From Roseimaritima sediminicola (GTDB lineage Bacteria; Planctomycetota; Planctomycetia; Pirellulales; Pirellulaceae), in contig NZ_WIAD01000056.1 of NCBI RefSeq assembly GCF_009618275.1, forward strand, positions 1-38,630: a stretch of 38,630 bases of DNA, in the 5' to 3' direction. Within the stretch, counting starts at the first letter, position 1. The number at the start of each line of letters is the position of its first letter. Below, piece by piece: positions 15,184 to 38,513 of the stretch. The notes under the pieces are model-generated. The model saw nothing but the letters and a program-made list of their open reading frames with translations, was not told where the DNA came from and did not search any database. The position numbers were made by a program, and so were the translations under genes.

Positions 15184-15190
15184 GCCGCGC

Positions 15191-15569: not shown

Positions 15570-15589
15570 ACGCTCGAGCTTGCGTTTAC
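15566..15589 (+). promoter_or_regulatory. perfect hairpin over the groES stop codon
   Basis: GTAAACGC (15566-15573) and GCGTTTAC (15582-15589) form a perfect 8-bp stem with an 8-nt loop. The stem includes the TAA stop of groES. No T-run follows, so this is not a standard intrinsic terminator. It might be an mRNA processing or stability site that sets the ratio of groES to groEL2; this is inference. Confidence 0.4.
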
Positions 15590-15640
15590 GTCCGTTCATC
15601 AACACATTCATTCAAACAGACATAACTGAGGACCTGACAA

Positions 15641-17260: not shown

Positions 17261-17285
17261 TTCCGCTCTGGAATTGTATTCTGCG

Positions 17286-17328
17286 ATCGGGCCATTTCCT
17301 GTGCCATCAGGGATGGCCCGATTTTATT
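17286..17328 (+). terminator. intrinsic terminator after groEL2
   Basis: A perfect 10-bp stem, ATCGGGCCAT (17286-17295) with ATGGCCCGAT (17313-17322), has a loop that can itself pair (CCTG with CAGG). It is followed by TTTATT. It separates the groE genes from dnaJ-grpE. Confidence 0.8.
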
Positions 17329-17365
17329 AGCGTCTTTCCTACGCACGGTGGTTAGGAAATCCTGA

Positions 17366-18526: not shown

Positions 18527-18535
18527 TGCAAGAAG

Positions 18536-23780: not shown

Positions 23781-24409
23781 TCCCCGGCCGCAATCCGCCG
23801 CCGATTCGCCGGCCGTCCCGCCGGATCAAGCGAGGTCTGGATGTCCTGTTGATCGTGTTGGCCGCCCCGTTGGTACTTCCGCTGCTGGGCCTGTGCGCGG
23901 TGGCCATCCTGATCGAGACCGGCCGGCCGGTGTTCTTTTTTCAGGACCGCACCGGCGTCGGCGGACGTCGCTTTCGGATGTTCAAGTTCCGCACGATGGT
24001 TCCGAACGCGGAACAAATGAAGCACGAACTGGCGCATCTGAACGAATTAACTTGGCCCGATTTCAAGATCAGCGATGATCCGCGCGTGACCCGTGTGGGG
24101 CGCTTCCTGCGGCGCAGCAGCCTGGACGAATTACCGCAACTGATCAACGTGCTGAAGGGAGACATGTCGTTGGTGGGACCACGGCCGACTTCGTTTGCCG
24201 CCGAGACCTACCAGTTGTGGCACACCGAACGTCTGGAAGTGACTCCGGGCGTGACCGGACTGTGGCAGATCAGCGGCCGCAGCGATGTCGACTTCGACGA
24301 CCGCGCCCGGCTGGATATTGAATACATCGAGAATCAATCGCTGCTGTACGACCTGTCGATTCTGCTGCGGACCGTCACCGCGATCGTCAGCAAACGCGGT
24401 GCGTACTAA
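23768..24409 (+). CDS. priming sugar-phosphate transferase (undecaprenyl-phosphate hexose-1-phosphate transferase)
   Basis: Transfers a sugar-1-phosphate from a nucleotide sugar to undecaprenyl phosphate and so starts each repeat unit. The 213-residue product is the minimal monotopic form: one hydrophobic segment (about 24-50), then FFFQDRTGVGGRRFRMFKFR, the catalytic Asp120-Glu121 in SSLDELPQL, SLVGPRP (134-140), and the C-terminal PGVTGLWQISGRSDVDFDDR. This form lacks the multi-pass N-terminal half of WbaP. It starts inside the wzz-like gene (13-nt overlap), implying coupled translation. The sugar cannot be told. Confidence 0.92.
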   Translation: MFRVIPGRNPPPIRRPSRRIKRGLDVLLIVLAAPLVLPLLGLCAVAILIETGRPVFFFQDRTGVGGRRFRMFKFRTMVPNAEQMKHELAHLNELTWPDFKISDDPRVTRVGRFLRRSSLDELPQLINVLKGDMSLVGPRPTSFAAETYQLWHTERLEVTPGVTGLWQISGRSDVDFDDRARLDIEYIENQSLLYDLSILLRTVTAIVSKRGAY

Positions 24410-24441
24410 ACCAGACCACCACCACGAGTTCGGGCGGCGCC

Positions 24442-25401
24442 ATGAAACGACTTCAGCTTTCCATTCTGATGCTGTTTGGATGGTTTTTCGTTTTCTACAA
24501 CATCGAACGACTATTCGAACCGATCAACCTCGCTTCGTTCGTCTACCTGCTGGCACCGGCATGCGGGATGGTTCTGTTGGCGGTGCCGCGGTTGTACCGC
24601 ATGCCGCCCGCATTGTTTCTTCCCGTAGCGCTCGTGGCGGTGGTCGTCCTCCGCAGTGCGTTCGGGTACCGGCTCGATGGGGCCGCCTTCAGTTTGGCGG
24701 TGACCGAGACCGTGGCCGTGTGGATCACGCTGTGGCTGAGCGGACACCTGGCGCGCGGATTGGAGGAGTATCGCAGTGCCGCGGCGACCGCCATCTTTAG
24801 TCATGTGATGGATTGCCGGCCACTGGCGGAAGTGCAGAGCGAGATTGTGCGCGAGGTGCGCCGGGCGCGTCAGTACGATCGACCCATCGCCGTCTTGACA
24901 CTCCAGCCAGTCGACCAGGCGGCCAGCGATACCCTGGATCGGTTCAGCAACGATTTCAAGGAAGCTCTGCTGGAGCAGTACGTGTCCGCCCGCGTGGCTC
25001 GCTGTGTCAGCGAGCAACTGCGTCAATACGATATTCTGACCCAGTCCGACGACCGCTTGATCGCACTGTTGCCGGAGCTGAGTCGCGAAGAAGGACTCGC
25101 GATGGCGGCCCAGTTGCGAACGCAGATGCACGCCGAAATCGGCATCGATCTGCGGGTCGGTATCTCGATGTTTCCCGAAGACGAAATCACCGCGATCGGT
25201 CTGATCGAGCGAGCCGAAGCGGATGTCGAGGACGTGCTTCGCTCTGCCGAAAACTCGTCGCCGCTTGCAGCCCAAGAGGCCGCCCGGGATGCTCCAGACG
25301 ATCGGGCTGAGGGCGACGACCAGGACCACACCGCGCAGCTCCGAACTGGTTCCGCTTCCGGCCGCCCGCGTGGTGCCTATGCTCCCACGGTTGCCCGATG
25401 A
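24442..25401 (+). CDS. membrane protein with degenerate GGDEF-like domain
   Basis: A 319-residue protein: about four hydrophobic segments (7-24, 33-50, 56-72, 83-102), then a cytoplasmic region (about 120-270) with the outline of a GGDEF domain. The outline is EVRRARQYDRPIAVLTLQP, then LRQYDILTQSDDRLIALLPE, then LRVGISMFPED and a helix with ERAEADVEDVL. At the place of the GG(D/E)EF signature it has SDDRL (202-206), and the substrate-binding Asp/Asn pattern is not evident. It is therefore unlikely to make cyclic di-GMP; it may be a nucleotide sensor or scaffold for the polymer machinery. The C-terminal 45 residues are acidic and low-complexity. Its ATGA overlap with the GT4 gene supports a role in the pathway. 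The domain call rests on pattern, not on an alignment. Confidence 0.75.
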   Translation: MKRLQLSILMLFGWFFVFYNIERLFEPINLASFVYLLAPACGMVLLAVPRLYRMPPALFLPVALVAVVVLRSAFGYRLDGAAFSLAVTETVAVWITLWLSGHLARGLEEYRSAAATAIFSHVMDCRPLAEVQSEIVREVRRARQYDRPIAVLTLQPVDQAASDTLDRFSNDFKEALLEQYVSARVARCVSEQLRQYDILTQSDDRLIALLPELSREEGLAMAAQLRTQMHAEIGIDLRVGISMFPEDEITAIGLIERAEADVEDVLRSAENSSPLAAQEAARDAPDDRAEGDDQDHTAQLRTGSASGRPRGAYAPTVAR

Positions 25402-26879
25402 ACCCGGCTTCGACGCTCTCCGCCGCAACGCCCTCGTCCCGCGCCGACTCGTCCCGCGCCGACTCGTCCCGCGCCGACTCGGCCAGCAACACGTCGGCCA
25501 GCAACACGTCGGCCCGTGCCCAGCCGCCTGCGCCACCGGTGCGCACAGTGGCCTATGTGATGTCGCGCTTTCCCAAGCTGACCGAGACGTTCGTCTTGTT
25601 TGAGATCCTCGCGGTCGAGAAACAGAAGGTTGCGGTCGAGGTGTATCCACTGTTGGGCAAAGCCGTCAGTGGCCAGGAGGTGGCCGGGGCGGGGCTGTGG
25701 CGCAAGTGGCGCGAGCACCGTCGGGCTCCGGCTCGGCCCGCCCTGATGCACGAGGAGGCTCGCCCCTATGTGGCCCGCGCTCATTACCACGGTTTCCTCA
25801 GCACCGCCATCGTGTGGGCCAACATGCTCTCGATGCTGCGGCACCCACGACGGTACTTCGGCGCGTTGGCGGGGCTGATCCGCGGCACCTGGGGCAATCG
25901 CAACTATTTATTCGGCGGCTTGGCGGCTTTTCCAAAAACCGTCTTCTTCGCTCGCCAAATGCAGCGTGACGGCGTCCAGCACGTGCACGCGCATTTTGCC
26001 AACCATCCCGCCGCGGCCGCCTACGTCATCCATCGCTTGACCGGCATCCCCTACAGCTTCACCGCTCATGGCTCGGACCTTCATCGCCATCAACACATGC
26101 TGGGCACCAAGGTTCGCGGCGCCGCGTTCGTGGTCACGATCTCCGAGTACAACCGACGCGTGATCCTCGAACACTGTGATCCGGCGGACGCTGAAAAAGT
26201 GCGGGTCCTTCACTGTGGCGTCGATCTGCATCACTTTTCTCCAGCGGAGCGTCGACGCGAATCGAACGAACCGCTGCAGATCGTTTGTGTGGGCACCTTG
26301 CACGAGGTTAAAGGTCAAGCGTACCTGCTGCGTGCTGTGGCGGGGCTGCGACTACGCGGACTCGCCTGTCGGCTGGATTTGATCGGTGACGGTGCGGATC
26401 GCGATATGCTCGAGCGTTTGGCTGCGGAGCTGGGCTTGGTGGACTGCGTGCGTTTTCTTGGCGTCCAGTCTCGCGCTTCTTTGCTGCAGCGGTTGCGGGC
26501 GGCCGACGTGTTGGTCGCGCCCAGCGTGCCCAGCAGCGACGGTCGCCGCGAGGGCATCCCGGTTGTGTTGATGGAAGGTATGGCATGCGGATTGGCTGTG
26601 GTGGCCAGCCGGTTGTCGGGAATTCCCGAACTGATCAACAGCGACCGCGTGGGATGCCTGTGCGAGCCCAAGGATGTGGACGCTCTGACGGAAACGCTGC
26701 AGCGTTTGGCCGCCGATGACGCTCTGCGGCTTCGTCTGGGAACGGCCGCTCGGCAGCGGATTGAGACGGCTTTCTCGGTCGATGCGAACGCGGCCAAACT
26801 GATCGATATGTTTCACGACGCGGCCGGAATTCCTTCCGCGGAACCGTCCCCTGCGACCCTTAACGGTGACCCGGATTGA
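25398..26879 (+). CDS. glycosyltransferase family 4 (GT-B fold)
   Basis: Adds a sugar from a nucleotide donor to the growing lipid-linked repeat unit. In the 493-residue product the N-lobe has YVMSRFPKLTETFV and HVHAHFANHPA...FTAHGSDLH. The C-lobe has IVCVGTLHEVKG and the donor-binding EX7E motif EGIPVVLME (Glu385, Glu393), followed by GLAVVASRLSGIPELI. These are standard GT4 marks. The first 45 residues are a Ser/Ala/Asp/Asn-rich extension made of five 15-bp repeats (25434-25508) and are not needed for the fold. The ATG overlaps the upstream stop by 4 nt; a later start is possible, but no good alternative is visible before the fold begins near PPVRTVAYVMS. Confidence 0.9.
   Translation: MNPASTLSAATPSSRADSSRADSSRADSASNTSASNTSARAQPPAPPVRTVAYVMSRFPKLTETFVLFEILAVEKQKVAVEVYPLLGKAVSGQEVAGAGLWRKWREHRRAPARPALMHEEARPYVARAHYHGFLSTAIVWANMLSMLRHPRRYFGALAGLIRGTWGNRNYLFGGLAAFPKTVFFARQMQRDGVQHVHAHFANHPAAAAYVIHRLTGIPYSFTAHGSDLHRHQHMLGTKVRGAAFVVTISEYNRRVILEHCDPADAEKVRVLHCGVDLHHFSPAERRRESNEPLQIVCVGTLHEVKGQAYLLRAVAGLRLRGLACRLDLIGDGADRDMLERLAAELGLVDCVRFLGVQSRASLLQRLRAADVLVAPSVPSSDGRREGIPVVLMEGMACGLAVVASRLSGIPELINSDRVGCLCEPKDVDALTETLQRLAADDALRLRLGTAARQRIETAFSVDANAAKLIDMFHDAAGIPSAEPSPATLNGDPD
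25434..25508. repeat. 15-bp in-frame tandem repeats, 3 + 2 copies
   Basis: TCGTCCCGCGCCGAC is repeated perfectly three times (25434-25478, peptide SSRAD), followed directly by two perfect copies of TCGGCCAGCAACACG (25479-25508, peptide SASNT). Perfect identity suggests recent expansion. Confidence 0.9.
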
Positions 26880-28048
26880 TGCTATTGGTCAAGCTGCTAT
26901 TGTTCTTCGCCGTGCTGACGATCCTTTACACCTATGTGGGGTTTCCGCTGCTGGTGGTGCTGCGCGGGCGGCTGCTGCGGCGGCCGATCAAGGTCGCGCC
27001 GATCACGCCCCAAGTTACCTTGATCGTCGCGGCGCATAACGAACAAGACAGTATCGAAGCCAAGCTGCAGAATGTTTTGCAGTTGGATTATCCGCGCGAC
27101 CGCTTGCAGGTGTTGGTGGCCTCGGACGGTTCGGACGACCAAACCAATGAGATTGTCGGGCAGTACGCTTCACATGGTATCCAGTTGTTGGCACTGCCGC
27201 GGCTGGGAAAAGCCGGCGCGCTCAACGCGGCGGTTGCCAAAGCCAAAGGCGACGTGTTGGTTTTTTCGGATGCCAACAGCATGTACGCTCCCGACGCGAT
27301 TCGGCAACTGGTCGCACCCCTGGCGGATCCGACCGTAGGCGGCGTGGCCGGCGACCAACGCTATCGCAAGACGACCCAAGCCGCCGGCAGCGACCAGGGC
27401 GAACACACCTACTGGAACTTCGACCGCCAGATGAAACGCTGGCAGAGCGAGGCCGGACATGTGATCTCTGCGACCGGAGCGATCTACGCGATTCGCCGCA
27501 GTTTGTTCTGCCAGGTGCCCGATGGGGTAACCGACGATTTTATTACCAGCACCCGAGTGATCGCCCAAGGATACCGCTTGGTGTTTGCGGCCGCGGCGGC
27601 TGCCTACGAGCCGGCGGCGGCGTCCAGCGGCGTTGAGTTTGGTCGCAAAGTGCGGGTTATGACACGTGGGCTGCGCGGCGTGGTCCTGGTGCGGCAATTA
27701 TTGAACCCGCTGCGATACGGTTTCTACTCGTTGCAATTATTTTCGCATAAGGTCTTGCGCCGCTTGATGGTCCTGCCACTGGTGGCCATCTATGGGCTCA
27801 GCGGTGCGTTGGTCTTTCAAGGCTGGCCCTACGCCGCGTTGTTTGGGCTGCAGAGCCTGTTTTATGGCATGGCGGCCGTGGGATGGCTGATGCGCAAGCA
27901 CTCGCTGGGACGACACAAAGCGTTCGCCTTGCCGGCGTATTTCTGTCTGGTCAATGCGGCCGCGTTGGTCGCATTTATTAATATCCTGCGCGGCCATCGA
28001 ATCGATCGTTGGGAACCAAAACGCAGCGTCGAAACCGCTCCCGTGTGA
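26879..28048 (+). CDS. glycosyltransferase family 2 (GT-A fold), membrane-associated
   Basis: A 389-residue processive-type GT2. The N-terminal membrane segment (about 5-28) is followed by the GT-A domain: VTLIVAAHNEQDSI, DGSDDQT (83-89) for nucleotide binding, RLGKAGALNAAV, the metal-binding FSDAN (129-133), and a catalytic-region VTDDF. C-terminal hydrophobic segments follow after about 260 (LMVLPLVAIYGLSGALVF and others). The overlap is TGATG, so ATG 26879 fits best; the in-frame TTG at 26876 is an alternative. The donor sugar is unknown. It follows the GT4 gene with coupled translation. Confidence 0.9.
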   Translation: MLLVKLLLFFAVLTILYTYVGFPLLVVLRGRLLRRPIKVAPITPQVTLIVAAHNEQDSIEAKLQNVLQLDYPRDRLQVLVASDGSDDQTNEIVGQYASHGIQLLALPRLGKAGALNAAVAKAKGDVLVFSDANSMYAPDAIRQLVAPLADPTVGGVAGDQRYRKTTQAAGSDQGEHTYWNFDRQMKRWQSEAGHVISATGAIYAIRRSLFCQVPDGVTDDFITSTRVIAQGYRLVFAAAAAAYEPAAASSGVEFGRKVRVMTRGLRGVVLVRQLLNPLRYGFYSLQLFSHKVLRRLMVLPLVAIYGLSGALVFQGWPYAALFGLQSLFYGMAAVGWLMRKHSLGRHKAFALPAYFCLVNAAALVAFINILRGHRIDRWEPKRSVETAPV

Positions 28049-28090
28049 ACCGACTGCATCGGTGTTGATCTCGCTCCTGCTGAACTGACC

Positions 28091-29668
28091 ATGTCCAACC
28101 CACTCGCCTACCCTCTTCACCGCACCTCCGTCGTGCCGCTGCTGGTCTTGGTGGCCAGCGGACTGTTGACGTTCGGGGTATTGGTCGCGATGGGCTATCC
28201 GTACGGTTGGCTGGTATGGGGTGTCTTGGCCGCGATTCCGGCGGCGTTCTTCGCGGTGCGAAACCCTCAGTTGGTGGTCGCGTTTGTGGCGTTCCTGCTG
28301 TTCACCAATGCACCGGTCGTGGCGTTCAAGTTTCACGGCTTGCCGCGGGTGGCCGCCCTGGTGGGACCGCCTGCGGCGTTGGGAACGCTGTTGGCCTATC
28401 AGTTGTTCGTGCGGCGCAAACCCCTCGTCTTTCCTCGTGCCTGGTGGTGGGCAATGGCGTTGCTGGCCGTGGAGGTGGTCAGCGCGATGATGGCTCGCTA
28501 TCCAGGCTTGGCCATCGGGATCTTGAAAGAACACCTGATCGAAGGTCTGGGATTGTTCTTGATCTTTGCGAATCTGATCCGGGATCGACAATGTCTTCGG
28601 CAGGTGGTGTTGGCGCTGTTGTTGGCCGGATCGTTGATGGGCGGACTGTCGTTGGTCCAGCAGCTCACCCATACGCATCGAAACGATTACGGCGGTTTCG
28701 CACAGGTGCCTTTCGAAGGCAAAGGATTCGCGACCGGGGAACATCATCGCCAGCGGCGTTCGGCCGGCCCCCTGGGCGAACAGAACCGCTATGCACAGAA
28801 CATGTTGATGCTGGTCCCCTTGGCCGTCTTGCCGATTGGCGGCGTGGTAGGTCCGTGGCGAAAACTGGGATACGTGCTGGCGGCCGTGCTGATCTCTGCC
28901 GGCTGTATGCTGACGTTTTCACGCGGTGCCGCCGTGGCGTTCGGAATTTTGATTCTGTTGATGCGGTTCACCGGATACATCCGTACCCGTCATCTGGGAA
29001 TGTTGGCGGTCGCTTCGTTGTTGTTGCTGTTGGCGTTTCCACAGATCGCCAGCCGGATGGATTCGCTGGGAACCTTGGTGGGTTACCTCCGCGGCGATAC
29101 CGGAGCGCAAACTCAAAAGTTGGACGGGGCGATCACCGGCCGAGCCACGTCGATGCTGGCGGCGTTGCGGGTCACTGCGGACTACCCGATCCTGGGCGTG
29201 GGACCGGGGAACTTTCCGCTGTACAACCGCGAGTACGCCAAGGTGGGCGGGTTTCGTGCCCATGACGAAGACCGTGCCGCCCATTGTCTGTACCTGCACC
29301 TGAGCGCCGAGTACGGTTTGCTGGGCTTGACGCTTTTCCTGGGCATGATCGCCGTGACGCTACGAGACCTGCACCGCGTGTGGCGGCGTTACCGCGACGA
29401 AGATCCCCAGCTGGCGACGCTGGCCGCCGGCGTGGCGATGGCCCTCCTGGCATATCTCGTAACCGGCCTGTTTTTGCACTTCTCGTTCATTCGCTTCTTC
29501 TGGATCATCATGGCGATCGCGTGCAGCATTCCATTGATCGCCGCGCGTGAGCAGGCGCTGCGGGAGGATCGCTCGGCGCCGACCGGTCCGGGGCAAGGAA
29601 CGCGGGCAACGGCAAATGATTCGGCGGCCATCGATTCGGCGGCCATCGAACCCGGGGGCACCGCATGA
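28091..29668 (+). CDS. O-antigen ligase/polymerase family membrane protein (Wzy/WaaL-like)
   Basis: A polytopic membrane protein of 525 residues with about a dozen hydrophobic segments. It carries the Wzy_C signature in a large periplasmic loop: ILGVGPGNFPLYNREYA, then HCLYLHLSAEYGLLGL. In this operon it most likely polymerises flipped repeat units, with WaaL-type ligation as the alternative, since the two share the fold. The last 30 residues are low complexity and include two 15-bp repeats coding DSAAI twice. The gap of 42 nt before it is the widest in this part of the operon; its stop overlaps the flippase start (ATGA). Confidence 0.88.
   Translation: MSNPLAYPLHRTSVVPLLVLVASGLLTFGVLVAMGYPYGWLVWGVLAAIPAAFFAVRNPQLVVAFVAFLLFTNAPVVAFKFHGLPRVAALVGPPAALGTLLAYQLFVRRKPLVFPRAWWWAMALLAVEVVSAMMARYPGLAIGILKEHLIEGLGLFLIFANLIRDRQCLRQVVLALLLAGSLMGGLSLVQQLTHTHRNDYGGFAQVPFEGKGFATGEHHRQRRSAGPLGEQNRYAQNMLMLVPLAVLPIGGVVGPWRKLGYVLAAVLISAGCMLTFSRGAAVAFGILILLMRFTGYIRTRHLGMLAVASLLLLLAFPQIASRMDSLGTLVGYLRGDTGAQTQKLDGAITGRATSMLAALRVTADYPILGVGPGNFPLYNREYAKVGGFRAHDEDRAAHCLYLHLSAEYGLLGLTLFLGMIAVTLRDLHRVWRRYRDEDPQLATLAAGVAMALLAYLVTGLFLHFSFIRFFWIIMAIACSIPLIAAREQALREDRSAPTGPGQGTRATANDSAAIDSAAIEPGGTA
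29618..29647. repeat. 15-bp in-frame tandem repeat, 2 copies
   Basis: GATTCGGCGGCCATC is repeated perfectly (29618-29632, 29633-29647), coding DSAAI-DSAAI at the C-terminal tail of the polymerase-like protein. Confidence 0.85.
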
Positions 29669-31248
29669 GCGAAGCTCCGTCGCAGCATGCCGCTCGCAGC
29701 CACGTTCGCGGCTCCAGTTTGCTGCTGTGCGGGCGAGTGCTTGCGCTGTCGATGAATTTTGTTGTCCAGGTACTGATCGTTCGGTACCTGTCGAAGGAAG
29801 GGTACGGTGCATTCGCGTACGGTTACAGCGTCGCCATGCTGGCGGCTCGTTTCGTGCCGCTGGGCACCGAGAAAGCCATCAATCGCTTTGTGCCCATCTA
29901 TCACGAGCAACAGGATTACGGCCGTGTCAAAGGCACGCTGGTCGTTGCCCTGGCCACGATCCTGACGACGGGCGTCCTGTTTGTCGGTGCGACTTTGGTG
30001 GGACGCAACCTGCTGGCGACCAGGGTGGTCCAGGATCCGCTGGCCCTGTCGGTGCTGTTGATGATCGTGGCCCTCGCACCGCTGCAGGCACTGGAGAATG
30101 TGCTGGAAAAGGTGATGGCCAGTTTCGGCCGCGTACGTTCGCTGTTCTTCCGACGCTACCTCATCACTCCGGTTTTGCGGCTGGCCGCCGTGGTTTCGTT
30201 GATCGTCGCGGGCGGCAACGCCGTGTTCCTGGCCGCGGCGTACGTTGCCGCTACCGCCTTGGGCGTCCTGATCTCAGGACATTTGCTGTGGCGACTACTG
30301 CGTGAAAGACAGCTGTGGGATTCGCTGCGCGGCGATCCGGCGCGCTATCCGGCGGGACGCTTGTTTCGGTTCGGTTTGCCGCTGCTGAGTACCGACGTGG
30401 CGTTCGGGTTGCGGACCAGTTTGGTGGTCGTGCTGTTAGAGGTCACGCACGGGATCAGTGGGGTGGCGGCGTTTCGTGCTGTGTTGCCGGTGGCCCGGTT
30501 GAATCAGGCCGTGTTCGATAGTTTTCGATTGATGTATGTGCCGCACGCTTCACGCATGTTTGCGCGGGACGAACACGCGGGTATCAGTCGACTGTACTGG
30601 ACCAGTACGGCGTGGATTGCGTTGTTGACGCTGCCGGTACTGCTGGTGACGTTTTCGTTCGCGACGCCCACGGTGGTCTTGCTGTTCGGAGCGGAGTACG
30701 CCAGTTCGGGACCGATTCTGGCGCTTGTCGCGTTGGCGTTGTATGTGAACGCGTCGTTCGGGTTCAACGCACTGACTTTACGCGTCTACGACCGAGTGGG
30801 CATGATCACCAAGATCGATCTGTTGTCGGCGCTGTTGGCGTTGGTTCTGAACGTGTTGTTGGTTCCTCGTTTTGGACCCGTCGGCGGCGCGGCGGTTGTC
30901 TGCGCCGTGTTGGCGGTTCAGAATTTGGCGTACCAGATGGTGCTGTTTCGCGCTGGACAACTGGAACGACCCGAGGCGGCCATCATCCGCGTGCATGCTG
31001 CTGTGATCGGTGTCGCTGTGGTGTTATTGATTATCCAAGTGACCATGACGCCTGCTGTTTGGGGCATCGCTGGATTGATTCTTGCGGCGACGCTGGGGGT
31101 TTGGTTTGCCTGTCTGCAGACCTTGCAGATTCGCGAACACTTTCCGGAACTCGCTCGAGTGCTGCCACCCTGGTTTTTGGCGACCGAGAACGGCAGCTCA
31201 GAAGAACTTTCCGAACCGACGCTTCCCGTTGATCAGGTGCGACCATGA
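29665..31248 (+). CDS. polysaccharide flippase (Wzx/MOP family)
   Basis: Moves lipid-linked repeat units across the inner membrane. The 527-residue product has the MOP-family pattern of about 12-14 membrane segments. It begins with a typical segment, GSSLLLCGRVLALSMNFVVQVLIVRYLSKEGYGAFAYG, and has the internal LLFGAEYASSGPIL motif of the second half. The last 35 residues are soluble. It lies between the polymerase and the kinase genes with 4-nt ATGA overlaps on both sides, as expected for a Wzx/Wzy pathway. Confidence 0.9.
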   Translation: MSEAPSQHAARSHVRGSSLLLCGRVLALSMNFVVQVLIVRYLSKEGYGAFAYGYSVAMLAARFVPLGTEKAINRFVPIYHEQQDYGRVKGTLVVALATILTTGVLFVGATLVGRNLLATRVVQDPLALSVLLMIVALAPLQALENVLEKVMASFGRVRSLFFRRYLITPVLRLAAVVSLIVAGGNAVFLAAAYVAATALGVLISGHLLWRLLRERQLWDSLRGDPARYPAGRLFRFGLPLLSTDVAFGLRTSLVVVLLEVTHGISGVAAFRAVLPVARLNQAVFDSFRLMYVPHASRMFARDEHAGISRLYWTSTAWIALLTLPVLLVTFSFATPTVVLLFGAEYASSGPILALVALALYVNASFGFNALTLRVYDRVGMITKIDLLSALLALVLNVLLVPRFGPVGGAAVVCAVLAVQNLAYQMVLFRAGQLERPEAAIIRVHAAVIGVAVVLLIIQVTMTPAVWGIAGLILAATLGVWFACLQTLQIREHFPELARVLPPWFLATENGSSEELSEPTLPVDQVRP

Positions 31249-32399
31249 GTGCAAGTCTCGACCATGGCCCACCTCTGACGGTGGACGACCTCATCGAACA
31301 ATTGCGGCAACGGATCGATTCCTTTGTCGGCTTGGACGTGAACCCTCGCCAGTGCGTGCTTGTTAAAACCATCCGGCGGCGCTTCTGCCAACTGTACCTG
31401 TTTAATCTGTCTGGGCGGGATGATTCGCCGGAGATCCTGGTCAAGGTGCCCGTGGGGCATGCGGATGTCCAGTATCAAGAACGGTGTCGAGACGCGGCTT
31501 TCGTCGATCGGCCGCGTTTGTTCGGCCGGGTGGATCCCGAGAGCAAGGCCGTCAAAGAATATGAGGCGCTGCGGCGTGTGCAAACGGCTTTGGACGCCGG
31601 GCCGGACGAGCGGTTCGGTGTGGTTCGGGTGTTCGATTTGCTGCCGCCACAGCATGCCCTGGTGATGCGGTGGGTCGATCAACCCAGCTTGCGAAAGAAG
31701 CTGTACGCTGCCCACCGACTCAGTTCGCCGCGATTGGCTTGTGACTTAGAGACGGTCTTCGGTCGCACCGGAGCCTTGTTGCGAACTCACCATCGGCTTC
31801 CTGCTCTGCCTCACTGTGAAACCCGCAACACGACGCGCGACGATTTTCTCGCGGCCATCGATCGCTTCGTCAGCTATTTGGATGAACATCTCCCTGGCAG
31901 CGACTTGCGGCGCTTGCAGCAACGCGTCATCGAGCTGGCCCGGGGCTGCCTTCCGGAAACGATTCCCACCGGACAGGTGCACGGCGATTTTGCGCCACGC
32001 AACATCTTCGTGGATGCGGCGAATCGGGTTTCCTTGTTCGACACGCTGGGGCGGTTCGAGGCGCCGATCTACGAAGACGTCGCCAAGATGCTGATGTGCA
32101 TACACGCCTCGGGGCCACAGCTGATCAGTGCCGGAGTCCTGTACGCTCCGAAACGGCTGAAACGGTTCGAGGATGCATTGGTTCGCGGTTACTTCGGTGA
32201 CCGCAGCGTCCCGGTCGCAGCCATTAACTTGTTTTCTGTGCAATTGGTCCTGGAACACTGGGCAGCGATTGTCTACCGTCATCGGGAACACCGTGGAGCC
32301 AAGCGGATCGCCAAACAGCTGCGCCGCAGATTGTGGCAGCGAGGGTTCCAGCAGTATCTGAATCAATTGCTAGAACGAACGGAGACGGCCCAACCCTAG
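31245..32399 (+). CDS. APH-fold (aminoglycoside phosphotransferase-like) small-molecule kinase
   Basis: A 384-residue protein with the C-lobe signatures of the APH/choline-kinase fold: VHGDFAPRNIFVD, with catalytic Asp248 and Asn253, and a DFG-equivalent Asp266 in SLFDTLG, followed by PIYEDVAKML. The N-lobe ATP lysine is plausible in ILVKVP but not certain. It probably phosphorylates a small molecule such as a sugar or amino alcohol. The operon context (between flippase and sulfotransferase, ATGA overlap upstream) suggests an intermediate or decoration of the polymer, rather than antibiotic resistance. The actual substrate is unknown. Confidence 0.8.
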   Translation: MSASLDHGPPLTVDDLIEQLRQRIDSFVGLDVNPRQCVLVKTIRRRFCQLYLFNLSGRDDSPEILVKVPVGHADVQYQERCRDAAFVDRPRLFGRVDPESKAVKEYEALRRVQTALDAGPDERFGVVRVFDLLPPQHALVMRWVDQPSLRKKLYAAHRLSSPRLACDLETVFGRTGALLRTHHRLPALPHCETRNTTRDDFLAAIDRFVSYLDEHLPGSDLRRLQQRVIELARGCLPETIPTGQVHGDFAPRNIFVDAANRVSLFDTLGRFEAPIYEDVAKMLMCIHASGPQLISAGVLYAPKRLKRFEDALVRGYFGDRSVPVAAINLFSVQLVLEHWAAIVYRHREHRGAKRIAKQLRRRLWQRGFQQYLNQLLERTETAQP

Positions 32400-32465
32400 G
32401 CATGGCTGCAGAACGAGCACCGTTCTCGGAACGTGATCTGGCCAGACCGAAAGATCGAATTACTC

Positions 32466-33353
32466 ATGCTTCGAAAACCCAACTTTATCTACATCGGGAC
32501 CAGCAAGGCAGGTTCGACCTGGCTGTTTGACCTGTTGTCGCGCCATCCCGACGTCTATATGACCCCGGTCAAAGGACTGTACTTCTTTGATAGTCACTTC
32601 GAAAACGGCTGGCAGTGGTACCAAGAACACTTTGTCGAAGCCGACCAGCAGACGATCGTCGGCGAGATTTCGCATTCGTATCTGTATTCGCCGGTGGCCT
32701 GCGAGCGAATCGCCGAGATGAACCCGGAGATTCGGTTGATGGTTTGCCTGCGCGAGCCGATCGACCGGGCGATTTCCATGTATCTCGACGGCGTTCGCAA
32801 CGGCAAGTGGGACGGAACGTTTGAAGAGCGGATGGAGGATACTCCGGAGATCCTTCAGGAAGGTTTTTACTCCCAGTACCTGCCGGCTTATTTGGAACGG
32901 TTTTCACGCCAGCAACTGCACATCACGTGCTTTGACGACCTCAAGGAATCGCCGGCCGACTATGCTGCTGCCGTTTACGACGCGTTGGGAGTCCCGCCGA
33001 TGCCGTGGGATGCGCGGCTGCAGCAGAAAGTGATGCCCGCCTGTGTGCCTCGCAGCAAACATCTCGCCCGCTTCAGCAAACGCTTGTCGTTGACCTGCAA
33101 ACAACTGGGCATGAAAAAGCTTCGCGGCCGCGTCAAACGCTCGCGGGTGATCCGCAATCTGCTGTACCGCAAAGTCCGAGAGGAGGATCGGGCTCGGCTG
33201 CGTCCGGAAACCCTGGCCGAACTCCGGCGCCGCTTTCGCCCCGAGGTCGCACGTTTGGATGCGATCTTGGGAATGAAACTGTCGCGTCGCTGGGGGTATG
33301 CTTCGGCCGAGACGCCGACCACGGACCCTTCCTTGAAGATGGCCAGGCGATGA
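32466..33353 (+). CDS. sulfotransferase (PAPS-dependent)
   Basis: Transfers sulfate from 3'-phosphoadenylyl sulfate to a hydroxyl or amine. In the 295-residue product the 5'-phosphosulfate loop IGTSKAGSTW is at 10-19 and the 3'-phosphate motif CLREPIDRAISMYLDGVRNG lies near 88-107. FPVKGLYFFD-like sequence (TPVKGLYFFD) resembles heparan-sulfate-type sulfotransferases (K-x-x-x-FF). I chose ATG 32466 because the fold starts right there (MLRKPNFIYIG); an in-frame GTG at 32433 adds 11 residues. Ribosome sites are weak for both. The stop overlaps the next start (ATGA). Location in an exopolysaccharide operon points to a sulfated polymer. Confidence 0.88.
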   Translation: MLRKPNFIYIGTSKAGSTWLFDLLSRHPDVYMTPVKGLYFFDSHFENGWQWYQEHFVEADQQTIVGEISHSYLYSPVACERIAEMNPEIRLMVCLREPIDRAISMYLDGVRNGKWDGTFEERMEDTPEILQEGFYSQYLPAYLERFSRQQLHITCFDDLKESPADYAAAVYDALGVPPMPWDARLQQKVMPACVPRSKHLARFSKRLSLTCKQLGMKKLRGRVKRSRVIRNLLYRKVREEDRARLRPETLAELRRRFRPEVARLDAILGMKLSRRWGYASAETPTTDPSLKMARR

Positions 33354-34393
33354 CACCGATAGGACTAGCTCTTCACGACCGCGTGCGAATCGTGCTGGAG
33401 GATGCCTCGCGACGCGACGTGCAAACCGTGATGAACGCGACCGGCGCGTCACCCACCGACGTGCTCGAACCCACCGATATCGAGGTCCGCTTTGCCGACA
33501 ATACGCACGGAATCGACGTTCACCTTCCCGATGACTGTTGCGAGCAGCCGTTTCGAATGACGGTGCCGACCGGTCAGCGCCGGTTGCCGCTGCTCCGCTC
33601 GATGGTGAACGTCAAGATGGTCTATGCCGATCTGCTGCCCCTGCACGCGTCGGCTTGGACCTGTCCGTCGGGCGGGATGCTGGCATGTGGTTGGTCCGGT
33701 GGCGGCAAGACCGGGATGCTATTGGCTCACCTACTGCATGGTGCAGAGTACTTGGCGGCGGAGTGGGCCTATGTCTGCCCGGCTAGCTCGCGGATATACG
33801 GCGTCCCTGAAACGTTGCGCCTGCGGTCGTGGCACCTTCGGCAGGGGGCAGGCGAAGTGGTGAATGTTCGGCGGCAGGATCAATGGCGACTTTGGAAGAC
33901 GCGTCTTATGGCCGGAGTGCTTCGCCGTTCGGCGGATTGGCTTCCGCAGCCACAGCGACTGCGTCGCACGCTGACCAAAGCGGCCGCCGGTGCCCAGCGA
34001 CGCTGCTATATCGACAAACCGGCTTCGTCCTGGTTGGCAACACCGTCCGGTTCGCGGTCCGCTCCTCTGCAGACCGTGTATTTTGCCGGAGTTCACGACA
34101 GTTCGGCGATCGACGTGAAGCCTGTGGAGCTGGACGCCGCACACGCTCGCCTCGTGGCGCTTCAGGATGAGGACCTGACGGACTTGGATGCTCAGTATCG
34201 TCGCTGGAGCTACGATCATCCGAGGGCCGACGCGTGGCGCGAGTGTTGGAACCGAAAACGCGACCGTTTGATTCGCCAGATGCTGGTCGGAAAGCAACTT
34301 TACGCCGTCGACCGTCCGGTTACGGTGGGTTTGACCGATTTATACAGGACCCTTAACTCCACAATGCGGACACCATGTTTACAGTCGCTTTGA
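33350..34393 (+). CDS. HPr kinase-like P-loop protein of the exopolysaccharide operon
   Basis: A 347-residue protein with LPLHASAWTCPSGGMLACGWSGGGKT-like organisation, the layout of HprK/PEP-carboxykinase-fold kinases: Walker A GWSGGGKT with Lys120, then LAAEWAYV at about 135-142 where HprK-like proteins have (S/A)D(D/E). The first acid is replaced by Ala, and Glu138 remains. No HPr-like partner or PTS gene is nearby, so it is unlikely to be true HPr kinase. HprK-related kinases are found in other gene clusters with ATP-grasp proteins. I infer a kinase for a small molecule or peptide. It overlaps the next gene by 19 nt, which is more than elsewhere in the operon. Confidence 0.7.
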   Translation: MTPIGLALHDRVRIVLEDASRRDVQTVMNATGASPTDVLEPTDIEVRFADNTHGIDVHLPDDCCEQPFRMTVPTGQRRLPLLRSMVNVKMVYADLLPLHASAWTCPSGGMLACGWSGGGKTGMLLAHLLHGAEYLAAEWAYVCPASSRIYGVPETLRLRSWHLRQGAGEVVNVRRQDQWRLWKTRLMAGVLRRSADWLPQPQRLRRTLTKAAAGAQRRCYIDKPASSWLATPSGSRSAPLQTVYFAGVHDSSAIDVKPVELDAAHARLVALQDEDLTDLDAQYRRWSYDHPRADAWRECWNRKRDRLIRQMLVGKQLYAVDRPVTVGLTDLYRTLNSTMRTPCLQSL

Positions 34394-35073
34394 TCGGGCC
34401 CGACGGTTCGGGAAAGACCACCGTGGGCAGGCGGCTACGCGAACAATTGCCGATTCCCGCCCAGTACCTGTACATGGGCGTGAATCCACAGGCCAGCACG
34501 CACCTGTTGCCCACGACGCGCTTGGCGCAGAAACTGCGTCGTGCGCTTGGCAGGCAACGTGATGCCGGAGGACCCCGCGAGAAGAGCCGGGCGGTCGAGA
34601 ACGCCCACAAGCCGCTGCCGCGCCGGATCCTCAAGTCCGTCAAGTCGTCCTTGTCGCTCAGTAACCGTTTGGCCGAAGAGTGGTATCGCCAGATGGTCGC
34701 CTGGCATCATCTGCGGCGCCGCCACGTGGTGATTTTCGACCGCCATTTCTTTCCCGACTATTACGCTTACGATATCGCTGGCGAAGCCACGCGTTCGTTG
34801 ACCCAGCGGATTCACGGTTTCGTACTGAATCATCTCTACCCCCGGCCCGATGTGATTATTTTTCTCGATGCGCCGGCCGAAGTGCTGTTCGCTCGCAAAG
34901 GTGAGGGCACCGTGGAACTGCTGGAACAGCGGCGCGGGGACTACCTGCAGATGCAGGACCTGGTGAAACACTTCGAAGTGGTCGACGCCAGCCGAGATGT
35001 GGATGCGGTGGTTCAGGATGTTAGTCAACGGATCCTGCGATTTTACGAAGCCCAGGGTGGTCCTCCGCGATGA
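34375..35073 (+). CDS. thymidylate kinase-like P-loop kinase
   Basis: A 232-residue P-loop kinase of the Tmk-like group. Visible parts are Walker A GPDGSGKTT (8-16), the DR-type motif FDRHFF (Asp122-Arg123), LDAP (164-167), and a basic lid RKGEG (174-178). An insertion of about 60 residues after the P-loop is rich in Arg/Lys. The context, and the unusual insertion, argue against a housekeeping dTMP kinase; a role in polymer modification is inferred. The start lies within the HprK-like gene, and the stop overlaps the ATP-grasp gene (ATGA). Confidence 0.78.
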   Translation: MFTVALIGPDGSGKTTVGRRLREQLPIPAQYLYMGVNPQASTHLLPTTRLAQKLRRALGRQRDAGGPREKSRAVENAHKPLPRRILKSVKSSLSLSNRLAEEWYRQMVAWHHLRRRHVVIFDRHFFPDYYAYDIAGEATRSLTQRIHGFVLNHLYPRPDVIIFLDAPAEVLFARKGEGTVELLEQRRGDYLQMQDLVKHFEVVDASRDVDAVVQDVSQRILRFYEAQGGPPR

Positions 35074-36368
35074 CCGAAACCTCTGCAGTTCGAGTGTTGG
35101 TAACCGATGCCTGTCGCGGCGCGGCCGTGGCGACGATTCGCGCGTTGGCACGCGGTGGTTACCGTGTCTACGCCGCGGACGCTTCTCCGCATGCACCAGG
35201 GATGGCTTCGCGATACGTCTCAGAGCGGGTGGTCTATGCCTGTCCGATGGAGGATCCCGATCGGTTTGTCCGGGACGTCTTGGACGCGGTCGATCGTCAC
35301 CGCATCGACATTATCATTCCCGTGACAGAACGAGCGCTGTTGCCGCTGGAGTCGGCACGCGATCAGTTTGAAGACCGATGCTGCGTGCCGTGGGCGCCGC
35401 GGGAGGCGATGGCTACGGTTCGCAACAAAGCAGAAACGTTTCGTTTGGCCGAGGCCTTGGACGTGCCCGTTCCGCGGACCCGGCGGGTGAGCTGTGCCGA
35501 GGAAGCGGTGCAGTGTGCCGACGGCCTGGGATGGCCGGTGGTTCTAAAACCCGTCTCTTCGCATACCCTGGCCGAAGATCACGCAGTAGAGTTCTGGAGC
35601 GTTAGTTATGCTCGTGACCCACGGCAACTACGTGAACAGATGCGGCAGTACGCGGGACGCTGCGACGTTTTATTGCAGGAGTATTTTCAGGGCGATGGCG
35701 TGGGCGTGGAGGTGTTGGCGCACGAGGGTCGTGTCTTGTGCGCCTTCCAGCATCGTCGCCTCCGCGAAGTGCCGCTCAGCGGGGGCGCCAGTTCGCTTCG
35801 CCGCAGCGAGGACGTTCATCCGGATCTGTACGAGCAGACCCAGCGATTGATCGCCCGCTTGAAATGGACAGGCTTAGCGATGGTGGAATTCAAGCTGAAT
35901 AGTGCCCAGCAGTCGCGGCTGATGGAAATCAACGGTCGGATTTGGGGCTCCCTACCGGTCGCGATTGCTGCAGGGATGGATTTTCCAACGCGGCTGTGTC
36001 GGTTGTTATTGGAAGGGCCGCCGGACGAGGCGGCTGCGCCGGATACGGAGTATCGACGGGGGCTGCATGTGCAGAGCCTTCAAAAGGAGCTCAGCTGGAT
36101 GATTCGCGTGCTGCGGCGTTCGGATGTCCATCCGCTGGCTCAGTTGCCTCCGCGGTGGGCGGTTTTGAGCGTCATGGCGGATCTCTTCAAGCCACACTAT
36201 CGGTTCGACATTCTTTCCCTTCGCGACCCTCTGCCCGGCGTGCGCTTGTTGACAAACATGCTTCCGCGGGCGGGAAAGAAAACGTCCAGCCACGATGATG
36301 CCGCCGCAAAACTGTCTCCGCCCACGCCGGTAACGTCCGCGGCCAATTCACCCGTTCATAAAGCTTGA
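35070..36368 (+). CDS. ATP-grasp ligase
   Basis: A 432-residue ATP-grasp enzyme, a class that joins a carboxylate to an amine or thiol through an acyl phosphate. It has the N-terminal Rossmann-like region VRVLVTDACRGAAVATIRALARGGYRVYAADAS, followed by IIIPVTERAL. The ATP-binding lysines are in WPVVLKPVSSH, with the LLQEYFQGDGVGVEVL strand after them. The metal-binding EINGR is at 286-290. The C-terminal 45 residues are polar. Its partners are unknown; it may add an amino acid or similar group to the polymer or to a precursor. Confidence 0.83.
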   Translation: MTETSAVRVLVTDACRGAAVATIRALARGGYRVYAADASPHAPGMASRYVSERVVYACPMEDPDRFVRDVLDAVDRHRIDIIIPVTERALLPLESARDQFEDRCCVPWAPREAMATVRNKAETFRLAEALDVPVPRTRRVSCAEEAVQCADGLGWPVVLKPVSSHTLAEDHAVEFWSVSYARDPRQLREQMRQYAGRCDVLLQEYFQGDGVGVEVLAHEGRVLCAFQHRRLREVPLSGGASSLRRSEDVHPDLYEQTQRLIARLKWTGLAMVEFKLNSAQQSRLMEINGRIWGSLPVAIAAGMDFPTRLCRLLLEGPPDEAAAPDTEYRRGLHVQSLQKELSWMIRVLRRSDVHPLAQLPPRWAVLSVMADLFKPHYRFDILSLRDPLPGVRLLTNMLPRAGKKTSSHDDAAAKLSPPTPVTSAANSPVHKA

Positions 36369-36375
36369 GGCGGTC

Positions 36376-37416
36376 ATGCTGAAAACGCTTCGCCGTACGG
36401 CCCTGCGTGCTGCTAATACGTCGTTAGCAGGTTCGGTGCTACGCACGCTGGATCAAGCGCGTCTGGGACGCGCCGGAGATTTGGCGGTGTTGACGTATCA
36501 TCGCGTCGACGAACCAGAGGCCCGGTCGCGTCTGTATCCGGGTCTGATCAGCGCGTCGCCCGAACGGTTCGGGCAACAGCTGGATTTACTGACTCAGATC
36601 GCGCAGGTCGTTTCGATGCAGGAGGTTTTGGAGGCGTGTGCCGGCCGGGCGATGCTGCCCGCACGCTGCGTGTTGATTACCTTCGACGATGCCTGTTGCG
36701 ACTTTGCACGACACGCGTGGCCGGAGTTGAAACGTCGCGGCTTGCCGGCAACCTTGTTCGTTCCCACAGCGTATCCGGATCGACCCGACCGCCATTTTTG
36801 GTGGGATCGGTTGTATGCGATGCTGTGGCATGGCGGCCGGGACAGGTTGCAGTGCGAAGCCGGCCGATTTGACCTTACCTCCGACCGCCAGCGAAAGCTT
36901 GCTTATCGAAGCCTAAGTGACTGGATCAAGGCGATGCCGCACGACGCTGCCCTGCGGTTGCTCGACCAGATGGCGGCGGAACAGGCGGCCCCGTTGCCAC
37001 CGCACAACGTTCTCTCCTGGCAAACCCTAAGGCAATTGGCTCAGGAGGGCGTTACGCTGGCGGCACATACGCAGACACACCCGTTGTTGACTCGAGTTGA
37101 TTTGGAAGAGGCTCGCCGCGAAGTATCAGGTTCCCAGGCGGATCTACAGCGAGAAATCGGCCAGGTGTTACCCGTGTTTGCATATCCCGGCGGCCAGCAC
37201 AATGCGGCGTTGGTGCGGATGATGCGAGAGGAAGGCTTCGAATTAGCCTTCACCGTACGACGCGGCATCAATCACATCCCTGCGCTAGCCAGCGGGAGCC
37301 GTGAGCGACGCCTGACGATGAACCGCATCAACATCGGCCAACAAACCAGTGTCCAGGTCCTGCACGCCCAACTCATCGCCCTGTGGTGTCACGGCCGCAC
37401 CCGAGGCCGCGTTTGA
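36376..37416 (+). CDS. polysaccharide deacetylase (NodB/CE4 family)
   Basis: Removes N-acetyl or O-acetyl groups from a polysaccharide using a metal. The 346-residue product has the NodB motif ITFDDAC (Asp104-Asp105), the metal-binding HTQTH (His231, His235) and FAYPGG. In place of the usual TFDDG there is TFDDA. I see no clear signal peptide (N-terminal ALRAANTSLAGSVLRTLD), so it may act in the cytoplasm on lipid-linked units, as some CE4 enzymes in such clusters do. It lies 8 nt after the ATP-grasp gene and is the last recognisable gene of the exopolysaccharide operon. Confidence 0.88.
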   Translation: MLKTLRRTALRAANTSLAGSVLRTLDQARLGRAGDLAVLTYHRVDEPEARSRLYPGLISASPERFGQQLDLLTQIAQVVSMQEVLEACAGRAMLPARCVLITFDDACCDFARHAWPELKRRGLPATLFVPTAYPDRPDRHFWWDRLYAMLWHGGRDRLQCEAGRFDLTSDRQRKLAYRSLSDWIKAMPHDAALRLLDQMAAEQAAPLPPHNVLSWQTLRQLAQEGVTLAAHTQTHPLLTRVDLEEARREVSGSQADLQREIGQVLPVFAYPGGQHNAALVRMMREEGFELAFTVRRGINHIPALASGSRERRLTMNRINIGQQTSVQVLHAQLIALWCHGRTRGRV

Positions 37417-37442: not shown

Positions 37443-38123
37443 ATGATGAACATGTTAAAGGTCACGATTTGGACGCTGGCGGTCCTCGGTATGGTCCCCA
37501 CCATTCTGTTGGCCGTGCTCAACATCGGCAGTAACATGGCAATGGCCCGGCATCTGAGAAAGAATCCTGACTTTCAGGTCGGCGACGGCCTCTTAGCGTC
37601 GTCCCAAAGTTACATCGAGTTCAACAACCGGTGGCGGTTGGAAGTTGCCACGACAAATTGGCCTTCTATATTGTTGCTCTTTGGGGCGGCGGCGTTTGTG
37701 ATCGGCCTTTGGTTCTTGCTCCCACGTCAGACGCAGCATCAGAACGTTGGTGGTTTCGAGAAAATCGAGCCGTACGTCGAGCGTGTCATGCAATCGGAAT
37801 CGCCGCACGCCTACCTCGTCATCTCACTTGCCGAAGACGAATACACCGCTGTCGGTGTTTCAAGTTCTGCAGAAGGTTGCACGATGGACTTTTCGTTGAC
37901 AAAGAAAGAGCAGATCGCACCGGTCGTGGCTTTCTTTTCCGAACGAGCAAAGGAACCGATCGAGGACCGCGTAACTGAGGAGGGAACCGAGTTCGAAACC
38001 CGTCATTTATCCTACCCAATTGATAGGGCAATCGAGGAGGTAGCGGATTTGTGCAAGTCGATTTTCACGGACGCTTACGGCGTCACGGGAGATCAAAAAC
38101 TAATCTTCGTGCTCGGCCATTAA
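37443..38123 (+). CDS. two-pass membrane protein of unknown function
   Basis: A 226-residue protein that I do not recognise. It has two hydrophobic segments (about 7-28 and 72-93) with a short loop between them, then a soluble, acidic C-terminal domain of about 130 residues (YLVISLAEDEYTAVGVSSSAEG, KLIFVLGH). The gene is 26 nt after the deacetylase and the frame is open further upstream; I took the first ATG (37443), with 37446 or 37452 also possible. Codon choice is less GC-biased and the sequence more AT-rich than in the operon upstream, so it may be a later arrival. It could be co-transcribed, but nothing ties it to the polymer pathway. Confidence 0.7.
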   Translation: MMNMLKVTIWTLAVLGMVPTILLAVLNIGSNMAMARHLRKNPDFQVGDGLLASSQSYIEFNNRWRLEVATTNWPSILLLFGAAAFVIGLWFLLPRQTQHQNVGGFEKIEPYVERVMQSESPHAYLVISLAEDEYTAVGVSSSAEGCTMDFSLTKKEQIAPVVAFFSERAKEPIEDRVTEEGTEFETRHLSYPIDRAIEEVADLCKSIFTDAYGVTGDQKLIFVLGH

Positions 38124-38144
38124 CACCGAGAGCCAACCATATGA

Positions 38145-38254
38145 CCGGGGACAGAGACCACAAGACTATGACCAATGACCGGGGACAGGCAATGACAACC
38201 GGGGACAGAGACTGACAACCGGGGACAGAGACCACAACCGGCATTTGGGGACAG
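38145..38254. repeat. GGGGACAG repeat array
   Basis: CCGGGGACAG occurs at 38145, 38179, 38199 and 38219, followed by a divergent fifth, TTGGGGACAGTGCTTAC (from 38245). Flanks are related (AGAGACCACAA or AGACTGACAA). Motifs of this form are known from REP-like repeats near IS200/RAYT-type transposases in several phyla. No such transposase is in the window; the family assignment is from memory. Confidence 0.7.
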
Positions 38255-38436
38255 TGCTTACATACCGCAGAGTGAGCGATCACACGCTGAAAGCCGATCC
38301 CGGAATCCCGAAACACCAACGCCGGCCCATCGCCCCGAAGCTCAGCCGTCGTGGTGTTGCAGTTTCGCACCGCTACGGTTGCTCGGCAGCCGTCAAAGCA
38401 TGCTCTTTGCGCACAACGCTAGCCAGGTCGCCTGAA

Positions 38437-38480
38437 TGTCGACCGATTGTCGACCGATTGTCGACCGATTGTCGACCGAT
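38437..38480. repeat. 11-bp tandem repeat, 4 perfect copies
   Basis: TGTCGACCGAT is repeated four times without a mismatch (38437-38447, 38448-38458, 38459-38469, 38470-38480), and a partial fifth follows. The perfect identity suggests recent expansion. Confidence 0.9.
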
Positions 38481-38513
38481 TGTCTGCCGCGTCTCGCAAT
38501 CGCCTCGCGCCTG

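Follow-up and report, generated by a model that had tools for sequence, protein, structure and literature searches.

The DNA analysed here is a contig of 38,630 nucleotides (NZ_WIAD01000056.1, the window below) from Roseimaritima sediminicola, a member of the Pirellulaceae (Planctomycetota) whose 6.2 Mb genome is divided among 185 contigs. A single series of + strand genes (22248-37416) runs in the order Wzz, priming transferase, GGDEF-like membrane protein, GT4 and GT2 glycosyltransferases, Wzy and Wzx, and then continues into a block of six genes (31245-37416) encoding an APH-fold kinase, a sulfotransferase dependent on 3'-phosphoadenosine-5'-phosphosulfate (PAPS), an HprK-like P-loop protein, a Tmk-like P-loop kinase, an ATP-grasp ligase and a NodB-type deacetylase. 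Our comparison with other genomes revealed a core that is shared across phyla, consisting of the HprK-like, Tmk-like and ATP-grasp genes, usually with NodB and often with the APH-fold kinase; the sulfotransferase is an extra of the Pirellulaceae. The series unites a priming transferase, Wzx, Wzy, Wzz and glycosyltransferases, as in a Wzx/Wzy exopolysaccharide operon, and the block is best read as the tailoring end of this operon.

The six-gene block and its surroundings

All six open reading frames (ORFs) are open on the + strand at the positions given in the first-pass annotation of this DNA, all six of its assignments stand, and its account of the junctions was correct: they overlap or lie no more than 8 nt apart, except for the 66 nt between the APH-fold kinase and the sulfotransferase. 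The APH-fold kinase gene (31245-32399; Pfam APH, 35.1 bits, cut-off 23.2) overlaps the Wzx gene by 4 nt and encodes the sequence HGDFAPRN, with the motif HxDxxxxN. The sulfotransferase gene (32466-33353; Pfam Sulfotransfer_1, E = 2.2e-11, 44.1 bits; motifs KxGSTW and REPxxRxxS) follows after 66 nt if it begins at ATG 32466, or after 33 nt if the alternative GTG at 32433 is used. It overlaps by 4 nt the gene for the HprK/PEPCK-fold P-loop protein (33350-34393, ATG 33350; Walker A GWSGGGKT), an assignment based on a profile, a predicted model, weak NCBIfam matches and motifs, and this gene in turn overlaps that of the Tmk-like kinase (34375-35073; Pfam Thymidylate_kin, 40.6 bits) by 19 nt. Another 4-nt overlap leads to the ATP-grasp ligase (35070-36368; Pfam ATPgrasp_Ter, E = 3e-14, 53.4 bits), placed in type I by a tree described below, and a 7-nt gap to the NodB/PgaB-type polysaccharide deacetylase (36376-37416; Pfam Polysacc_deac_1, E = 1.3e-18, 67.6 bits; motifs TFDD and HxxxH). 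We take the sulfotransferase, APH and NodB motifs in their customary meaning. The Pfam matches of these five ORFs all exceed the curated cut-offs; the HprK-like ORF, taken alone, matches no Pfam model.

At E ≤ 0.01, the window HprK-like protein matched neither Pfam Hpr_kinase_C nor TIGR00679, and among 18 family members the two models gave weak matches in 4/18 (E ≤ 0.01) and 7/18, respectively. A single-sequence search with the window protein in 199 genomes of the phylum returned only two others, both weak. The 18-member profile matched solved HPr kinases (1jb1, E = 3.9e-4), and the predicted structure (mean predicted local distance difference test score, pLDDT, of 89) gave 11 Foldseek matches at E ≤ 0.001, all of them phosphoenolpyruvate (PEP) carboxykinases, followed by HPr kinases in the ranking; these 11 matches have TM-scores of 0.44-0.53 by query length and root mean square deviations of 6-11 Å. 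Structure prediction, the check that the first-pass annotation had suggested, places the protein in the HprK/PEPCK fold, at superfamily level only, with a Walker A motif. The family keeps the His, the checked Walker A residues and the second acidic residue in 18/18 members and the first acidic residue of the DD motif as Asp in 14/18, with GGKT instead of GxGKS and DEW instead of DD in most of them. The FomB model NF000361 also matched 16/18 members (best E = 6e-7). This resemblance was given little weight because the match is weak and, in the window protein, is confined to about 70 residues around the P-loop (21.6 bits, cut-off 400).

The Tmk-like protein is matched by TIGR00041 over residues 111-216 only, at 41.2 bits (cut-off 83.25), and its predicted model (pLDDT 87) retrieved thymidylate kinases with Foldseek at approximately 20% identity. 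A canonical, full-length tmk (133 bits) is present on another contig of the genome, C148. The score below the cut-off together with this normal copy elsewhere rules out a housekeeping dTMP kinase, a role that the first-pass annotation had considered adverse to a linked system.

None of the six block proteins has a 19-residue stretch of hydropathy above 1.6 or, judged by hydropathy, a recognizable signal peptide or transmembrane segment. The window deacetylase matches the PgaB model below its cut-off (E = 1.4e-18), and by simple hydropathy nine NodB homologs also have no strong hydrophobic N-terminus (highest 15-residue mean 1.51, in locus L130). An exported deacetylase of the PgaB/IcaB type, acting on poly-N-acetylglucosamine (PNAG), was rejected on this lack of a strong N-terminal hydrophobic segment in the window protein and the nine homologs; PNAG synthesis was rejected since neither PgaA nor PgaD was present among the window proteins scanned, which have Wzx/Wzy instead. 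ATP and PAPS are cytosolic, and because signal and transmembrane segments are also missing, the block enzymes would most readily act on lipid-linked repeats ahead of Wzx.

Upstream of the block, the series begins with a Wzz-like chain length determinant (22248-23780; Pfam Wzz, E = 8.8e-6; GNVR, 4.7e-5) and a priming sugar-phosphate transferase (23768-24409; Pfam Bac_transf, E = 4.6e-64). The membrane protein that follows (24442-25401) had no Pfam match at E ≤ 0.001; a 6-member profile matched solved diguanylate cyclases (best E = 2.7e-4), consistent with a degenerate GGDEF-like domain, and the protein is perhaps a regulator related to cyclic di-GMP. It occurs in 10/16 Pirellulaceae loci with the common polymer core defined below. 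Next are the GT4 glycosyltransferase (25398-26879; Pfam E = 4.4e-33), the PgaC-like GT2 glycosyltransferase (26876-28048; Pfam E = 6.4e-25; TIGR03937, 88.5 of 422.3 bits), a Wzy-type polymerase of the O-antigen ligase family (28091-29668; Pfam Wzy_C, E = 9.8e-19) and the Wzx-type flippase (29665-31248; Pfam Polysacc_synt, E = 3.7e-13). Directly downstream of the block, 37446-38123 encodes a small membrane protein with a weak Pfam 8xMP match, under the cut-off, and with no counterpart in the other GT2-marked loci of the family; beyond it, 38144-38237 and 38427-38492 hold repeated units resembling ACCGGGGACAGAGAC as well as GTCGACCGATT, an 11-bp tandem repeat. Promoter-like sites (5 versus 3.5 in shuffled sequences) and terminator-like sites (21 versus 18.6) were at about chance level. 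Elsewhere in the window, two neighboring Cpn60-family genes are followed by DnaJ and GrpE (13360-19213).

Distribution of the cassette and its ATP-grasp types

Within the Pirellulaceae, polymer loci were marked by the GT2 gene, which was detected in 38/199 genomes at E ≤ 1e-60; the window was compared with loci from 35 of the other 37 GT2-positive genomes, G243 and G346 being left out. The same polymer core was found in 16 of these 36 loci, window included, and the other 20 carry related glycosyltransferases. With one 3.9 kb contig (G326) set aside, the 15 remaining core loci included five with the HprK-like and Tmk-like genes, nine with an alternative cassette, one with neither (G256, a 20 kb contig) and none with both. 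The alternative cassette consists of HIBADH, an RraA-like aldolase, a second ATP-grasp, an ATP-grasp and usually an HTTM-like protein, and is exemplified by L050:7108-13000 (G267) together with eight further Pirellulaceae loci. The full gene order is identical in G199 and in Rhodopirellula maiorica SM1 (G348/L118) and nearly identical in Candidatus Laterigemmans baculatus JC640 (G265/L137). Across the 199 family genomes, the Tmk-like gene was present in 10 and a strong HprK-like match in 7, with six genomes common to both (hypergeometric 1.8e-8, uncorrected for kinship); in one of these six (G336) the two genes are on separate contigs, each at a contig end. An eighth HprK-like genome (G234) gave a weak 41-bit match in a different locus. 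Four of the ten Tmk-like genomes, all from genus g222, have no HprK-like gene, and carry a PEP phosphomutase (PepM) and a 2-hydroxyacid dehydrogenase (HADH) instead.

Beyond the family, a five-protein Tmk-like profile retrieved 27 loci from the genome collection, and adding the window, G199 and the four loci of g222 gives 33 non-redundant Tmk-like loci, with duplicates counted once (L118 = G348, L129 = G247, L137 = G265, L148 = L131). Short contigs were kept (e.g., L122, L123, L124, L128, L131, L133, L135 and L144), and absences in these are weak because the contigs are short. The HprK-like gene was found in 17/33 loci, 16 of which also carry an ATP-grasp of type I or II (the exception is L130); over the whole set, type I was present in 13 loci, type II in 12 and neither type in 8. 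A NodB-family deacetylase was detected in 21/33 loci, an APH-fold kinase (two queries) in 16/33 and the sulfotransferase in 4/33, all Pirellulaceae. Near the cassette in another locus, a single ORF (L119:2683-4494) combines a methyltransferase-like region with an APH-fold kinase and may resemble chain-terminating enzymes of the WbdD type.

The HprK-like, Tmk-like and ATP-grasp genes occur together in Planctomycetota, Chloroflexota, Actinomycetota, Bacteroidota and candidate division KSB1. Within 294 genomes of the window's own phylum, each of the two P-loop genes was detected in only four: for HprK-like, the strong match of the window itself and three at 35-38 bits, and for Tmk-like, again that of the window and three partial matches of about 60 bits. 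This rarity, together with the repeated side-by-side occurrence, suggests that the cassette travels as one unit. The first-pass annotation had made co-occurrence elsewhere its own test of a linked system, and the co-occurrence in five phyla bears out that part of its claim; the idea of all six genes as one conserved unit does not survive the sulfotransferase count of 4/33.

A tree of 36 ATP-grasp rows separated three types and the second ATP-grasp of the alternative cassette; several of its forks are weak, and the type II fork is supported at 92/92. Six loci outside the tree (L122, L133, L145, L146, L149 and L150) were typed by best score, the L133 gene being partial at a contig end, and a lone ATP-grasp of G367, on a long branch and from another locus, was left out of the type counts. 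For the window protein, the nearest solved chain by profile is 2pn1 (E = 1.2e-11). Two Lys, the Glu and the Asn of EIN, which we presume to be the catalytic residues, are invariant in ten type I rows.

The ATP-grasp type varied with the genes next to it. PepM and HADH were found in 8/12 type II loci, 0/13 type I loci and 0/9 type III loci (Fisher 2.7e-5; with g222 counted once, type II 5/9, p = 7.4e-4), and HIBADH with RraA in 9/9 type III loci and in 0 of the other loci scanned. This correspondence between ligase type and acid-supply genes suggests that the ligase activates a carboxylic acid and, probably, couples this small acid to the repeat unit. By sequence, the PepM of G265 is a mutase, with the motif EDKLFPKTNS and 416 bits to 1m1b; that of L133 diverges more, scoring 176 bits against the G265 protein, with EDN replacing EDK. 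According to an excerpt of PMC12871164, phosphonolactate is made by a known route in which a 2-hydroxyacid dehydrogenase acts after PepM, and the adjacent genes are likely a phosphonolactate supply. Such pairs are located beside type II ATP-grasp and Tmk-like genes in polymer loci at L041:8063-9980 (G265), L140:1234-3287, L143:10741-12746, L133:1038-2899 and L145:4801-6735 and in L146, L149 and L150. FemAB-like genes are situated beside these PepM-HADH-Tmk-ATP-grasp loci in L145 (604-4795) and L143 (12743-13816), and L145 additionally has a JmjC/cupin gene. A PepM search of ten genomes matched five, four of them at only 30-40% identity, and the window genome gave no PepM match at E ≤ 1e-10.

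Proposed role and alternative explanations

It is likely that the cassette decorates the polymer, and a product with sulfate, phosphate-type and amide-linked groups, as the first-pass annotation had proposed, is still the likeliest one. More specifically, we see an even chance that a cytosolic cassette deacetylates, acylates and phosphorylates lipid-linked repeats, and in the window also sulfates them, before they are flipped, a scheme of which we infer every chemical step. The cassette would act in the cytosol, ahead of Wzx flipping, on the lipid-linked repeat unit or on sugar precursors. The deacetylase would free the amine of an N-acetylated sugar and the ATP-grasp enzyme would form an amide between this amine and a small carboxylic acid; that the ligase acylates precisely the amine made by NodB has a little less than an even chance. 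For those type II relatives with PepM and 2-hydroxyacid dehydrogenase, the coupled acid would be phosphonolactate, and in type I loci such as the window the acid selected by the ligase may be one taken from the common pool. The HprK-fold and Tmk-like enzymes would phosphorylate the acid or the acylated unit, and we think it quite unlikely that both of these P-loop proteins do act on the acyl group. The APH-fold kinase would phosphorylate a sugar hydroxyl and, in some Pirellulaceae, the sulfotransferase would add sulfate. In its fullest form, the favored reading would be an undescribed, probably horizontally shared tailoring cassette, in which PEPCK/HprK-fold and Tmk-fold kinases act on the acid or glycan and an exchangeable ATP-grasp chooses the acid (phosphonolactate in one branch) for the amine provided by a cytosolic deacetylase, leading to strongly charged exopolymers with phosphate, phosphonate or pyrophosphate in several phyla; such a complete statement is more doubtful still.

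Several observations weigh against this reading. No HprK-like gene is seen in 16/33 Tmk-like loci, partly owing to short contigs, and inside the 33 loci the tie between HprK-like and ATP-grasp genes is modest (16/17 versus 9/16, p = 0.017). The 8/33 loci without an ATP-grasp of type I or II imply that the Tmk-like protein can act without the ligase. No NodB-family gene is seen in the available stretch of 12/33 loci, only partly because of short contigs, given that neither L143 nor any of the four g222 loci is short; in L145, the sole g222 locus scanned, there is a deacetylase-like ORF under the Pfam cut-off only. PepM is missing from 4/12 type II loci (L142, L129, and the short contigs L128 and L131). 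Many of the loci are contigs of metagenome-assembled genomes, whose phylum label depends on binning. Finally, the first Asp of the HprK-like DD motif is replaced by Ala in the window (residue 137), G199 and R. maiorica and by Pro in L134; we take the paired acidic residues to be catalytic, as in HPr kinases, and because of this replacement the activity of the window copy may be reduced, such that this copy may be a weak, altered or dead kinase.

The same genes might also serve as independent decorations, with each enzyme modifying its own site and the genes traveling together merely as tailoring genes. The ATP-grasp enzyme would then amidate the carboxylate of a uronic acid with an amine, as the TupA-like ATP-grasp domain of Campylobacter Cj1438 does, NodB would act on another residue and the kinases would phosphorylate sugar hydroxyls. 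Such an arrangement would be consistent with members that drop in and out of the loci (sulfotransferase 4/33, APH-fold kinase 16/33, HprK-like 17/33), and a capsule ATP-grasp domain is reported, in an excerpt of PMC11800379, to amidate glucuronic acid at its C6 carboxylate. However, the tie between ATP-grasp type and carboxylic-acid supply genes is more readily explained by an acid donor than by an amine donor, and ATP-grasp type I or II stands beside HprK-like in 16/17 loci; overall, we regard independent decoration as rather unlikely.

The HprK fold itself and the degenerate GGDEF protein, a typical regulator, in the same operon could point to a serine protein kinase that controls polymerization, comparable to the tyrosine kinases of other Wzx/Wzy systems. 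This is improbable, however, given that the HprK-like gene travels with metabolic enzymes and a regulatory module would leave its Tmk-like, ATP-grasp and PepM links unexplained, that Hpr_kinase_C reaches E ≤ 0.01 in just 4/18 members, and that no HPr-like partner was recognized among the annotated neighbors (no systematic search was made). We consider it very improbable that the block is a small-molecule pathway, for a phosphonate or phospho-acid, merely adjoining the polymer genes. PepM and 2-hydroxyacid dehydrogenase in 8/33 loci, the weak similarity to the phosphonate monophosphate kinase FomB in 16/18 HprK-like members, and the ATP-grasp proteins of phosphonate clusters mentioned in an excerpt of PMC7858074 would all be consistent with such a pathway; against it, the window genes overlap or nearly touch and sit between Wzx and NodB of one operon, the window genome itself has no PepM match, and a scan of 27 window ORFs revealed no product-specific transporter.

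If the favored tailoring cassette is correct, environmental bacteria would have a route for loading their exopolymers with phosphorus, also in the form of C-P bonds, and with other acids, and the HprK fold would be used for glycan or small-acid chemistry. The cassette would also point to two enzyme families that no model in the searched libraries fits, and since ligase type and acid-supply genes are exchanged in step, substrate prediction becomes testable with few enzymes.

Comparison with known systems

The HprK-like protein resembles the HprK/P and PEPCK superfamily in its fold, its Walker A motif, the His before it and the acidic motif after it. Unlike HprK/P, it is encoded in a polymer operon, and Hpr_kinase_C recognizes few of its relatives and not the window protein. 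Recruitment of an HprK homolog into a biosynthetic cluster is also known from lasso-peptide kinases of the paeninodin type; an excerpt of PMC8498205 reports that these homologs phosphorylate a serine hydroxyl and that some add several phosphates, which shows that the HprK fold can leave its HPr role. In contrast to those clusters, no lasso-peptide genes were recognized here, and the partners are Tmk-like, ATP-grasp and deacetylase genes.

The GAK system (ATP-grasp, amphi-Trp protein, kinase), to which the first-pass annotation had likened the block, shares an HprK-related kinase and an ATP-grasp. Its kinase model TIGR04355 weakly matched 12/18 HprK-like members (best E = 5.1e-7), whereas the window protein had no match at E ≤ 0.01, and the likeness is therefore weak. 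The lack of an amphi-Trp protein noted earlier was confirmed in an NCBIfam scan of ten window proteins, which did not cover very small ORFs outside the block; the block itself is packed too tightly to hold an extra gene. Membership in the GAK system was rejected on these two results, and the window differs further in its polymer context and its deacetylase and Tmk-like partners. NF000361 links FomB to most of the family, the window protein remaining far below the cut-off of that model. With the PgaB, IcaB and NodB deacetylases, the window protein shares catalytic motifs and the PgaB match below the cut-off; it differs from PgaB/IcaB in having no recognizable signal peptide, and from their setting in that no PgaA or PgaD accompanies it among the window proteins scanned.

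Phosphonate-modified exopolymers have been proposed in print (PMC9381506, seen as an excerpt), and eight type II relatives likewise have PepM beside polymer genes, as in clusters for phosphonate-decorated glycans. They differ from such clusters in pairing PepM with a 2-hydroxyacid dehydrogenase and an ATP-grasp, and the window itself is without PepM. We found no description of the gene set in the titles and abstracts listed by searches of the open-licence PubMed Central literature, a scope that gives no proof of absence. The polymer operon is of a known kind; the gene set, and the link between the type of ligase and the acid supply, are new.

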